The position numbers were made by a program, and so were the translations under genes. Below the pieces are notes generated by a model. That model ran no database searches. It saw only the letters and a list, made by a program, of their open reading frames with translations, and was not told the DNA's origin. Shown here in pieces: positions 44,975-49,031 of a DNA stretch of 56,380 bases (position 1 is the first letter of the stretch; every line of letters starts with the position of its first letter). The stretch lies in contig JAHJDO010000075.1 in NCBI GenBank assembly GCA_018812485.1, forward strand, positions 1 through 56,380, given 5' to 3'. The stretch comes from a bacterium (GTDB lineage: Bacteria; JAHJDO01).

Positions 44975-46498
44975 ATGAAAAAAGCTTATATATACATAGG
45001 TCTTTGTATCTTTCTTCTTACCTTCATTTTAAGTGTGCTTACTGTTGTTGATTATGGCATAACCTGGGATGAACCAATCTATATTTCCTACATTCTTCAT
45101 CAAATTGATTGGCTAATTTCCCCGCATCCTTTCTTAGAAAGCACAATAGAAAAATTCTGGCAGTTTGAACCACATCCACCTCTTGTAAAATATATTATGG
45201 GTGGAGGTTTATTGTTGCTACACAAATTTATTGGCATTCTATACGCTTGTAGAATCCCTATGTGCCTATTATTTTCTCTTCTTATAACCTCTGTTTATTT
45301 CTTTAGTTTAAGATACTACAATATTCATACTGCTCTTTTTTCCTCTTTATCACTATTCTTAATGCCTCGTGTTTTTGCGCATGGACATTTTGCAGTATAT
45401 GATGTCCCTATTGCTCTAGTCTGGTTTATTGTGACCTGGGCATTTATCAAAGGAACTAGTTCTACAAAATGGAGCGTATTCGTCGGCCTACTATGTGGAC
45501 TTGCTTTATTAACAAAGGAGAACGCAGTATTTTTAATAATCCCTCTTTTATTGTGGGGACAAATATATAGAAGAAAATCCTATGCAAGCAATGTGTTCTT
45601 TATTTTTTTTCTCTCTCCACTAGTTCTTATAGCACTTTGGCCAAGACTATGGTACGACCCTTTTTCTAACATTATTAAGTTTTATATGTATCATGTGAAA
45701 CATAATCCTGTTAATGTTTTTTATCTTGGAAAAATTTATGGCACACAACCTGCTCCCTGGCACTATCCAGTCCTCCTTTTGCTAACAACCGTTCCCTCTG
45801 CAACGCTCTTATTATCAATATACGGAATCCACGCATATATCAAAAAACATCTTAAAGATGAAATTTTAGGCATTGTCATTATAAATATTCTATTTTTATT
45901 AATACTAATGTCATTACCAATAGCTCAAAAATATGACGGTATAAGACTTTTTATGCCTATATTCCCTTTTTTAGCTGTGCTTGCAGGCGTAGGATTCTTT
46001 GAACTATATAAGAGAATAAGCACATTTACTAAAACATATAAATTCTTAGCAAATGGACTTTACATATTATTGCTTCCTGCATTAATAAGTCTGGCATGCA
46101 TGCATCCGTATCAAACATCCTATTACAACATGTTTATTGGTGGAATTAGAGGAGCACATAAACTGGGAATGGAAACTACTTACTGGGGAGACTGCATTAC
46201 AGGGAAAACCATAAAATTTATAAATAATAATACTCCGAAAAACGGACGCGTTATATTTTGTCCGGTTGGCAGTTTTGTACCAAGATACTATAAAGAAACA
46301 GGTCTGTTGAGAAAAGACATAGAAATAGCTGATATCAATGATGAGAATTTTGATTATCTGATTCTTTTATCAAGACAGGGAATGTTTAATGACAAACTGT
46401 GGGAAATATATAAACATGGGAAGCCAATATATGAAGTGTCTTATCAAGGAGTACCTTTCTTAAAGATATACAAAAGAGATGTTCTTTTGCCCAAATAG
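44975..46498 (+). CDS. GT39/PMT-type membrane glycosyltransferase (3' end altered by IS)
   Basis: Predicted 507 aa with ten or more membrane segments. The first loop has DYGITWDEPIYISYILHQID, the Asp-Glu pair expected for the GT-C/PMT catalytic loop, then EPHPPLVKYIMGG. A soluble C-terminal part follows from ~residue 400. It should transfer a sugar from a polyprenyl-phosphate donor on the outer face of the membrane. The stop TAG is formed by two IS bases (46497-46498). Without the insertion the frame would read two further codons (Ser-Phe) and stop at TGA, so the protein loses only two residues. Confidence 0.82.
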   Translation: MKKAYIYIGLCIFLLTFILSVLTVVDYGITWDEPIYISYILHQIDWLISPHPFLESTIEKFWQFEPHPPLVKYIMGGGLLLLHKFIGILYACRIPMCLLFSLLITSVYFFSLRYYNIHTALFSSLSLFLMPRVFAHGHFAVYDVPIALVWFIVTWAFIKGTSSTKWSVFVGLLCGLALLTKENAVFLIIPLLLWGQIYRRKSYASNVFFIFFLSPLVLIALWPRLWYDPFSNIIKFYMYHVKHNPVNVFYLGKIYGTQPAPWHYPVLLLLTTVPSATLLLSIYGIHAYIKKHLKDEILGIVIINILFLLILMSLPIAQKYDGIRLFMPIFPFLAVLAGVGFFELYKRISTFTKTYKFLANGLYILLLPALISLACMHPYQTSYYNMFIGGIRGAHKLGMETTYWGDCITGKTIKFINNNTPKNGRVIFCPVGSFVPRYYKETGLLRKDIEIADINDENFDYLILLSRQGMFNDKLWEIYKHGKPIYEVSYQGVPFLKIYKRDVLLPK

Positions 46499-47577
46499 GG
46501 AACGGTCAACACATCATTACCCCCCTGGGCAGAAAAGGACTGATCTAATCTGATGGCTACATCAAGGTCAATAGGCGGAATCATAAGCAAGCGCTTATCC
46601 AAATCAGGCACTTTCTCTCTAGCCAACTGCCATGGCGTTTTATTCTCTTTGTAAGTATTGGGTCTATGGAGATTAAAGAATAGCTGGTAAGAGTAAGCTT
46701 TTTGCATAAAGTTTAACCGATTTTTGGCAGGTTCTATCTCATAGAATTCTATTTCAATGAGATTATGGACAGTTTCAACATCAGCCTGCATTCTATGAGC
46801 GCCGGGGAATATGGTTCTGTGTACTTGTCCCGGCATAGATTCTATGGCCAAGGTATAAGCAGAAGGAGATTTGGACTGCCAGCTGCCGCAGTACTCCGAT
46901 CCATTGTCTGTTTGTCTTATGGAATTAGCAGGCAGTACGTTAAATTTACGTAACCAGTAGTTTATGTAGTTAGCGAATATGGTGGAATGGGTTAAGCTTC
47001 TTTCGTCGGCAAACCCTAAAAATTGGATACCACAGCTTACTTCTCTATAAGTATACTGAACTCTAGGCAGTTTAAGCTGAGTCATTCGAGTCCAGTATTC
47101 AGGGATATCGTTTAAATCTTTAGTATCTTCCATGGCGTGTCCAAACAAAGCGAACTGTTTCTTAACTTCGCGAAGGTTATTCTTGGTCTTATACTTCTTA
47201 ATCCTTCTTCTTGAATGGACGTTGGCTTCCCGCCAGATCTTACGCATAGTTTTAGGAGACAGACTGATATCTTCCAACGCCTTTATTTGTTCAGCCCCCA
47301 GCCGTTTGTATTTCTTTTTTAATTTTATAGCATGCTGTTTAATTTCCTGCGGTGTTTCTCTTGGAGAAGTATGGGGTCTTCTCGAACGGTCTGCTAAACC
47401 TGCATAACTCTCTTCAGTAAGGCGTGTTATCCACTTACGCACGACACAGGGACTTGTATTGTATGCTCTGGCAGCAGGTTTACGGCCATGCTTTAAGGCG
47501 AACTGAACCATCTGGTAACGGTGAGCCCTTTTGTCTTTACAATTTCTCATAATTTGATAGTATCGCACTGGGCACAT
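46444..47577 (-). CDS. IS481-like DDE transposase
   Basis: Predicted 377 aa. N-terminal helix-turn-helix domains (KPAARAYNTSPCVVRKWITR) are followed by an rve-type core with D151 (MEDTKDLNDIPEY), D224 (RQTDNGSEY) and E269 (ADVETVHNLIE). Start ATG 47577 has AGAGGAGG 8 nt upstream. The frame runs through the IS end at 46497 into host DNA, and about 16 C-terminal residues are encoded by antisense GT39 sequence. The native C-terminus is probably near TVPY. Confidence 0.85.
   Translation of the reverse strand: MCPVRYYQIMRNCKDKRAHRYQMVQFALKHGRKPAARAYNTSPCVVRKWITRLTEESYAGLADRSRRPHTSPRETPQEIKQHAIKLKKKYKRLGAEQIKALEDISLSPKTMRKIWREANVHSRRRIKKYKTKNNLREVKKQFALFGHAMEDTKDLNDIPEYWTRMTQLKLPRVQYTYREVSCGIQFLGFADERSLTHSTIFANYINYWLRKFNVLPANSIRQTDNGSEYCGSWQSKSPSAYTLAIESMPGQVHRTIFPGAHRMQADVETVHNLIEIEFYEIEPAKNRLNFMQKAYSYQLFFNLHRPNTYKENKTPWQLAREKVPDLDKRLLMIPPIDLDVAIRLDQSFSAQGGNDVLTVPYLGKRTSLLYIFKKGTP
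46482..46496 (+). repeat. 15-bp target-site duplication, left copy
   Basis: TTCTTTTGCCCAAAT; identical to 47958-47972 on the other side of the IS. Here it encodes VLLPK of the GT39 protein. Confidence 0.8.
46497..46530 (+). repeat. Terminal inverted repeat, left
   Basis: About 33 bp; shares with the right end a core CATC(A/C)TTACCCC(C)CT(G/A)GG and an outer (G/A)AA(C/T)GGT block. Matches number roughly 26 of 33. Confidence 0.65.
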
Positions 47578-47640
47578 AATGATATCCTCCTCTTTATTTG
47601 GGGAAAATTTAAGGAAGGTATCTTAATATATTATGTGCCC
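47570..47640 (-). promoter_or_regulatory. mRNA hairpin covering the transposase SD and start codon
   Basis: On the minus strand GGGCACATAAT (47640-47630) pairs perfectly with ATTATGTGCCC (47580-47570), which contains the transposase ATG. After a 7-nt bulge, GATACCTTCC (47622-47613) pairs with GGAGGATATC (47590-47581), which contains the Shine-Dalgarno; 9 of 10 positions pair, counting one G-U. The loop is 22 nt. Transcripts entering from outside would have both elements hidden. An internal start past the left arm would not. Confidence 0.6.
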
Positions 47641-47822
47641 TTTTTTATTACCATTTTATCCATAGGATCGTTAATGTAGTCATCCCATTCTCTAACCCTC
47701 CGCCATTTCTGGGAGAGACTGTCCCGCTCAGACCAAACAGTAACCGGAACGTATTGCTCGGTTTCGTTAGTTTGGATAGCGAGAATCTTGTCCCCAATCC
47801 GTCAAACAATCGTTTGAAACAT
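47631..47822 (-). pseudogene. Broken 63-codon frame upstream of the transposase
   Basis: From ATG 47822 the frame reads MFQTIV, then an in-frame TGA at 47804-47802. It continues RIGDKILAIQTNETEQYVPV, then TVWSERDSLSQKWRRVREW, and ends MVIKKGT at a TAA that falls in the hairpin arm. The stretch has the look of a real protein but no family is recognised. It may be a decayed accessory ORF of the IS. TGA readthrough is conceivable but unsupported. Confidence 0.4.
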
Positions 47823-47878
47823 GATGCTTCTTTCTTTATCTCCTTAAATATTCTCGTAGATATTATTAATATTTTCCT

Positions 47879-47910
47879 GACCCCATCCCGAAAGCTTTCG
47901 GGATGGGGTC
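47879..47910. repeat. Perfect 32-bp palindrome inside the IS
   Basis: GACCCCATCCCGAAAG is directly followed by its reverse complement CTTTCGGGATGGGGTC. It can form a 16-bp stem with no loop or a cruciform. It resembles REP-like intergenic palindromes. Its GC content contrasts with the surroundings. Confidence 0.8.
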
Positions 47911-47924
47911 CCTTGTATCCTCCA

Positions 47925-47957
47925 CCTAGGGGGTAAGGATGTATCTTACCATTTCTA
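47925..47957 (-). repeat. Terminal inverted repeat, right
   Basis: Counterpart of 46497-46530 in inverted orientation; immediately followed by the right target duplication. Confidence 0.65.
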
Positions 47958-47972
47958 TTCTTTTGCCCAAAT
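47958..47972 (+). repeat. 15-bp target-site duplication, right copy
   Basis: TTCTTTTGCCCAAAT. It is followed by CCTTTTGA, which would give GT39 its original last codons and TGA stop. Confidence 0.8.
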
Positions 47973-47976
47973 CCTT

Positions 47977-48005
47977 TTGACAAAACTAGAGTGAGTTGGT
48001 ATAGT
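47977..48005 (+). promoter_or_regulatory. Strong promoter of pta
   Basis: TTGACA (47977-47982), a 17-bp spacer and TATAGT (48000-48005) lie just outside the IS. The pta cluster therefore keeps its own promoter despite the insertion. The -35 box overlaps the restored GT39 stop codon, so GT39 and pta were tightly packed before the insertion. Confidence 0.7.
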
Positions 48006-48035: not shown

Positions 48036-49031
48036 ATGAATTTAATAGAAGAAATCAGAAATAAAGCAAAGTCTGACAGGAAAAGGATAGTCTTGCCTGA
48101 GTCACAGGATATAAGAGTAATACAAGCTGCATCCATACTGGAAAAGGAGAAGATTGCTGACCCTATACTATTAGGAAAAAGAGAGAATATAATTAAAGCA
48201 GCAAAACATGCCGGTATAAATATAGAAAACGTGAAAGTAATTGATCCAGAACAAAAAGTAACAGATGAAGACATTGAATTGTTTTATGATATGAGGAAAC
48301 ATAAAGGCATAAGTAAGGAAGATGCCTGTACACTAATTAAGCAGCCTCTATTATACGCTGCTTTGATGGTGAGAAAAGACATGGCTGATGGTTCAGTAGC
48401 AGGGGCAGTAAATACTACTGCAAATACACTGCGCGCTGCAATATGGCTAATAGGCCCTGCAAATGGTATAAAAGTAGTCTCAAGCTGCTTTGTTATGATT
48501 GTTCCGGACTGCGTTTATGGAGAGCATGGTGTTTTTATATACGCTGATGCAGGTATTGTGCCAAATCCAACATCTGAAGAGCTTGCTAGTATTGCCATAG
48601 CATCTGCAAAAACAGCCCGCATGTTCATAAAATCTGAGCCAAAGGTTGCTATGCTCTCATTCTCAACAAAGGGAAGCGCATCTCATGAGCTTATTGATAA
48701 AGTAATAAAAGCTACTGAGCTTGCAAAAAAAATGTGTCCTGATTTGCAAATTGACGGAGAGCTACAAGCAGATGCTGCTATTGTTCCTGAAATTGCAAAA
48801 AGAAAGTCTTCTCAAAGCAATGTTGCAGGAAAAGCAAATGTACTAATATTTCCAAATTTAGAAGCAGGTAATATATCGTACAAATTAACTCAGTACTTAG
48901 CAAAAGCACAAGCATTAGGTCCTCTGCTACAGGGACTTCAGAAACCAGCACACGATTTATCTAGAGGATGTAGTGTAGCAGATATTGTTAACATATCTGC
49001 CATTGCAGCTATACAAGCCCACTCTGCCTAG
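48036..49031 (+). CDS. pta: Phosphate acetyltransferase
   Basis: Predicted 331 aa from ATG 48036, with ACAGGAAA upstream. In-frame ATG 48006 touches the -10 box and cannot be transcribed from this promoter. It interconverts acetyl-CoA and acetyl phosphate. RIVLPESQDIRVIQAASILE, the GSVAGAVNTTANTLRAAIW loop, YADAGIVPNPTSEELASIA and LSFSTKGSASHELIDKV are typical Pta motifs. It is the short form without the N-terminal DRTGG region. ackA is not in the window. A related phosphotransbutyrylase activity is less likely. Confidence 0.88.
   Translation: MNLIEEIRNKAKSDRKRIVLPESQDIRVIQAASILEKEKIADPILLGKRENIIKAAKHAGINIENVKVIDPEQKVTDEDIELFYDMRKHKGISKEDACTLIKQPLLYAALMVRKDMADGSVAGAVNTTANTLRAAIWLIGPANGIKVVSSCFVMIVPDCVYGEHGVFIYADAGIVPNPTSEELASIAIASAKTARMFIKSEPKVAMLSFSTKGSASHELIDKVIKATELAKKMCPDLQIDGELQADAAIVPEIAKRKSSQSNVAGKANVLIFPNLEAGNISYKLTQYLAKAQALGPLLQGLQKPAHDLSRGCSVADIVNISAIAAIQAHSA

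Follow-up and report, generated by a model that had tools for sequence, protein, structure and literature searches.

The stretch of bacterial DNA analysed here (the window; 56,380 nucleotides, contig JAHJDO010000075.1 of assembly GCA_018812485.1) contains an insertion sequence (IS) that we regard, with a probability of about 0.88, as a promoter-targeting, oriented element of a family related to IS481. The IS occupies positions 46497..47957 (1,461 bp, - strand), as delimited by flanking 15-bp duplications, by boundaries that recur in other copies, and by an empty site in genome G003 of the same genus. Its transposase is encoded on the - strand, and its right end, at 47957, lies on the 5' side of the transposase gene. 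This end faces the predicted promoter of a phosphate acetyltransferase (phosphotransacetylase) gene (48036..49031, + strand; PF01515, 2.3e-117). The first base of the putative -35 hexamer TTGACA (47977..47982, + strand), which is conserved in G003 and G002, is 20 nt from the IS end, and the putative -10 hexamer TATAGT (48000..48005, + strand) follows after a 17-bp spacer. Sequence comparison establishes for the family a fixed distance to the promoter, a fixed orientation, a 15-bp duplication, a promoter that existed before the insertion, and the same geometry in several phyla.

Counted from the last base of the IS, the -35 hexamer begins at position 20 (19-21) in almost every copy, and the -10 hexamer follows after 16-18 bp. 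Scores for the match to the two hexamers (maximum 12) average 9.11 at the locked position; shuffles give 6.5, other offsets 5.8-6.5, and the left flanks 6.3-6.5. Scoring by lineage covered 80 distinct right-end flanks, 37 from the window's genus, 9 from Omnitrophota, and 34 from Goldiibacteriota. Each of the three groups has a single score peak, at position 20, and the comparison with dinucleotide shuffles gives 9.08 vs 6.11 +/- 0.18 for the window's genus (n=37), 10.33 vs 6.27 +/- 0.41 for Omnitrophota (n=9), and 8.85 vs 6.27 +/- 0.19 for Goldiibacteriota (n=34). At the same distance, the single copy from a Krumholzibacteria metagenome-assembled genome (MAG) has TTGAGT-17-TAAGAT and the copy in G042 (41% identity) has TTGACA-16-TATAAT. 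Because the promoter stands at the right end, the orientation of the insertion is fixed; the downstream open reading frame (ORF) is co-directional with the promoter in 65 of 71 flanks, and its start lies a median of 95 nt from the IS end. The empty site of G003 already contains the promoter, and G002 has retained the promoter block while its surroundings have diverged, so the IS did not bring the promoter with it.

The earlier note on this DNA had described, from the letters of the window, a 15-bp duplication around an element of ~1.46 kb with imperfect inverted ends. The two copies of the duplication (TTCTTTTGCCCAAAT; 46482..46496 and 47958..47972) are indeed exact, with 1,461 bp between them. 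The left (46497..46529, AGGGAACGGTCAACACATCATTACCCCCC..) and right (47925..47957, ..CCTAGGGGGTAAGGATGTATCTTACCATTTCTA; CCA in nearly all other copies) terminal inverted repeats match imperfectly (AGGGAACGGTCAACACATCATTACCCCCC... vs TAGAAATGGTAAGATACATCCTTACCCCC...), and the ends are of the AGGG...CCA type, not TGT...ACA. The empty site on contig C32 of G003 (locus L268; 97% identical) reads ...GATGTTCTTTTGCCCAAATCCTTTTGACA..., translated ...KRDVLLPKSF*, and agrees letter for letter with the junction that the note had predicted. Boundaries and duplication recur in other copies: the former in about 30 left and 37 right ends of same-genus copies, the latter as exact repeats in 17 of 18 matched left/right flank pairs from the window's genus, in four pairs from Omnitrophota, and in one from Goldiibacteriota. 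The window's own genome holds a second, left-truncated copy (C129, 87%), and the same-genus genomes hold more than 20, mostly contig ends broken at the IS, and all have the same tips. Relatives at 50-66% protein identity are found in MAGs labelled Omnitrophota, Krumholzibacteria, and Goldiibacteriota. The window's genus probably belongs to Auribacterota, since a 90%-identical copy is found in a MAG named Candidatus Theseobacter exili.

On its left the IS overlaps the end of a gene for a PMT_2/GT39-like glycosyltransferase (GT39; 44975..46498, + strand), whose last two codons are replaced by a TAG (46496-46498) that includes the first two bases of the IS. The interrupted gene ends ...LLPK-TAG and the uninterrupted gene of G003 ends ...LLPKSF-TGA, in agreement with the proposals that GT39 originally ended in Lys-Ser-Phe-TGA, that the IS supplies the new stop, and that only two residues are lost. 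For the window copy the insertion is therefore near-neutral for GT39, as had been suggested. The exchange of stop codons was thus described accurately, but it does not explain the insertion: the IS lies near the GT39 stop because its target is the next gene's promoter, and this promoter overlaps the 3' end of GT39; the exchange is a side effect of promoter-directed insertion.

The same holds for the other half of the exchange. The transposase ORF (46444..47577, - strand; 377 aa) has 360 codons inside the IS and no stop there, as the note had stated, and it does acquire a site-dependent tail in the window copy; this tail comprises 17 codons of antisense GT39 (46447-46496) rather than about 16. 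As the frame is not closed inside the IS, the IS depends on its target for the transposase stop, and the T-rich end of the target usually provides one. The end of the duplicated target has a preferred TT and is commonly TTT; the coding strand of the IS terminates in T, so that a TAA arises at the junction in most insertions. When we followed the frames of the other copies, as the note had recommended, a stop was completed at the junction in 18 of 31 left ends (16 TAA, 1 TAG, 1 TGA; about 20% expected from base composition), and the remaining left ends have tails of 2 to 54 codons or more. The target in the window ends in AAAT, so no stop arises at the junction and 17 host codons are gained, which makes the window copy an exception. 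Its tail looks incidental; what is conserved is the promoter-directed, oriented insertion.

Judged by its sequence, the transposase is a relative of IS481 transposases. Its match to the NCBIfam IS481 model NF033577 spans the full length but, at 94.2 bits, falls far short of the cut-off of 224; its relatives reach 97-105 bits, and the IS481 helix-turn-helix (HTH)/leucine-zipper domains PF13565, PF13518, and PF13011 are found above their cut-offs. The HTH is accompanied by the residues D151, D224, and E268, which are invariant across five lineages. None of the Mutator, IS256, or ISLre2 models in Pfam or NCBIfam is matched. In a quick tree with many long branches, the elements with 15-bp duplications and G042 form a clade of their own (99% SH-aLRT), which groups at 88% with IS481-like proteins of G014, G180, and G003. 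Searches of PDB and of phages returned nothing useful, and an AlphaFold model (five-row alignment, mean pLDDT 47.7) was of unusable quality.

Between the right end and the transposase lie the remains of a small second ORF, orfA (47631..47956, - strand), which is frameshifted in the window copy, so that this copy may depend on others. A reading in which TGA serves as a sense codon in this small ORF was rejected, as relatives reveal a plain frameshift/deletion. In relatives orfA is intact, with about 122 codons; loci with the small ORF include L141:2028-2393, L096:2550-2915, and L097:2632-2946, and it can be aligned, weakly, across phyla. In the window's genus its indels are in-frame and silent changes are in excess: codons with a single change comprise 63 silent and 79 replacement differences, summed over non-independent pairs, with about 22% silent expected. 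This pattern suggests that orfA is under purifying selection. It has no Pfam match, and we found no conserved start codon among the relatives.

Terminal repeats of IS481 elements begin with TGT and end with ACA. The window family resembles the IS481 family (NF033577) in its full-length alignment, its leucine-zipper/HTH domain, and its Asp-Asp-Glu (DDE) residues, and differs from it in lacking TGT...ACA ends, in its 15-bp duplication, and in the additional small ORF. A canonical IS481 element of G014 (27% identity; L271-L285), which has TGT..ACA ends and was chosen as a negative control, was also found at promoters (n=15, 9.8 vs 5.44 +/- 0.32). There, a 5-bp duplication is directly followed by TTGACA at position 6, and the promoter is on the 3' side of the transposase; the single IS481 copy of G180 (L309) has the same arrangement. 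In G048, one copy combines a 15-bp duplication and a TTGACT hexamer at position 15. The canonical multi-copy IS481 elements of G140, G385, and G114, inspected by eye in few copies, have no promoter pattern and other targets, e.g., CTAG. Promoter targeting thus seems to be a property of some branches of the IS481 tree only. We consider it quite possible, though we put this forward tentatively, that a large IS481-derived clade uses promoters as a safe harbour, probably via RNA polymerase-sigma70 and perhaps with orfA as a cofactor, and that it does so independently of the Mutator-like elements. This clade would employ at least two geometries, a 15-bp duplication with the promoter on the 5' side and a 5-bp duplication with the promoter on the 3' side.

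Oriented insertion upstream of sigmaA promoters is known from Mutator-like DDE elements with unrelated transposases, namely TnGBS and ISLre2 (both p-MULT 3) and some of the ISKra4 group (p-MULT 4); in TnGBS, ISLre2, and part of ISKra4 the distance between the right end and the -35 box is 15-17 bp, and the asymmetry of the ends has been proposed to set the orientation (PMC3942029). Like TnGBS and ISLre2, the window family inserts in one orientation at a fixed distance upstream of promoters, with the right end facing the promoter; unlike them, it has an IS481-related transposase, a -35 hexamer ~20 nt from the end, and a 15-bp duplication. Its hosts are uncultivated bacteria, comprising the probable Auribacterota genus, Omnitrophota, Goldiibacteriota, and others.

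The insertion may proceed as follows. The transposition complex would place the right end so that it faces a sigma70-type promoter and would make a 15-bp staggered cut, with nicks near -54 and -40 (taking the -35 box as -35 to -30), that is, in the region of the UP element and the C-terminal domain of the RNA polymerase alpha subunit (alpha-CTD). The promoter would be left intact ~19 bp beyond the IS, and the DNA upstream of about -55 would be replaced by the IS. An upstream gene that overlaps the target would lose at most its last codons, and the neighbours would hardly be touched. The position is presumably locked when the element integrates, through a contact that the transposase or orfA makes with the promoter or with RNA polymerase-sigma70 bound there, although a role of orfA in targeting is speculation, and the asymmetry of the two IS ends may set the orientation. 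Guidance through RNA polymerase-sigma70 appears most likely, because the -10 hexamer is part of the signal despite its variable spacing and because the nicks fall where alpha-CTD binds.

An alternative for the recognition step, which leaves promoter targeting as such untouched, is that the transposase or orfA reads the T-tract and the -35 letters directly, without RNA polymerase. Information is highest at the TT of the -35 hexamer and at the T-tract (target positions 13-16), beside the cut; however, a second signal is present at the -10 hexamer, 40-48 nt from the IS and beyond a variable spacer, and many targets combine a poor -35 with a good -10 hexamer, as expected for a promoter bound by the holoenzyme. 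We regard direct reading of the DNA as possible but somewhat doubtful. That ISs insert at random and only intergenic copies upstream of promoters persist is very unlikely: intergenic ISs are generally better tolerated and most copies adjoin genes, but the positional peak already contradicts this view, and selection is not expected to fix both the position, to within one base, and the orientation of insertions in genomes that are unrelated. Solo right ends and three 33-bp palindromes at this same promoter distance could suggest that the IS carries the promoter, or that right end and promoter form one mobile cassette. This is extremely unlikely, as the promoter is outside the duplication and differs in every copy, and it is refuted for the window copy, whose empty site already has the promoter. 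We give next to no credence to an ordinary IS that landed beside the GT39 stop by chance. One copy overlapping a stop codon is unremarkable on its own, but relatives have conserved the target promoter, and dozens of other copies share this position; the survey of copies refutes chance.

Several points weigh against the interpretation of the element as an oriented, promoter-targeting IS. The right flanks L073, L127, and several in G068 have no good promoter and are perhaps remnants or adjoin weak promoters. The promoter assignments rest on matches to the consensus, many left and right ends are paired only via their duplications because most of the genomes are MAGs assembled from short reads and broken at the IS, and the recognised target may be either RNA polymerase or bare DNA.

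We found no report of promoter-targeted insertion by IS481 relatives in the open-access literature, the part surveyed (subscription journals and ISfinder were outside its scope), and novelty is therefore provisional. Near base-pair-precise, oriented insertion at promoters is so far known from one superfamily of bacterial transposons; if our interpretation is true, a second family, spread across several uncultivated phyla, would indicate that promoter targeting evolved more than once. Aiming at promoters would let an IS spread without breaking genes. The integrase of yeast Ty3 docks on its transcription factors, and the present family makes it testable whether transposases dock on RNA polymerase. 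Each insertion would also mark a promoter, so that the copies provide a promoter map for bacteria that cannot be grown in culture, and the transposase is a candidate tool for directing insertions to promoters.

Further observations concern the ends of the element. A 32-bp perfect palindrome, a predicted RNA hairpin (47879..47910; z = -6.1 and -6.3), lies just inside the right end; it is kept with different letters in the other copy of the same genome (L005 3780-3809), a similar hairpin is found elsewhere in that genome (G000:C119:50470-50510), and an Rfam search gave no match. On the - strand, the left end contains an outward TTGACC (46504-46509) and the right end an inward TAAGAT (47943-47948). 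In an IS circle that joins the two ends, these could make up a promoter whose spacer would be 16 bp plus the length of any linker.

Three 33-bp palindromes (L143-L145; G001:C188:3028-3060, G001:C199:6066-6098, and G004:C20:192-224) consist of two right tips back to back (TGGAAATGGTAAG-N7-CTTACCATTTCCA), lack a target duplication, and are flanked on one or both sides by a promoter at a distance of ~20 nt. The solo right ends L131-L135, L137, and L148 adjoin promoters, have no recognisable IS behind them, and are apparently old remnants. The left end on G004:C15 (L008) and the right end on G004:C70 (L129) share one 15-bp target, and the right end on C15 has another, which suggests recombination between IS copies or misassembly. 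Near the second IS copy of the window's own genome, two adjacent small genes (L005 455-1090, G000:C129) resemble, by eye, an AbrB-type antitoxin and a PIN-type toxin.
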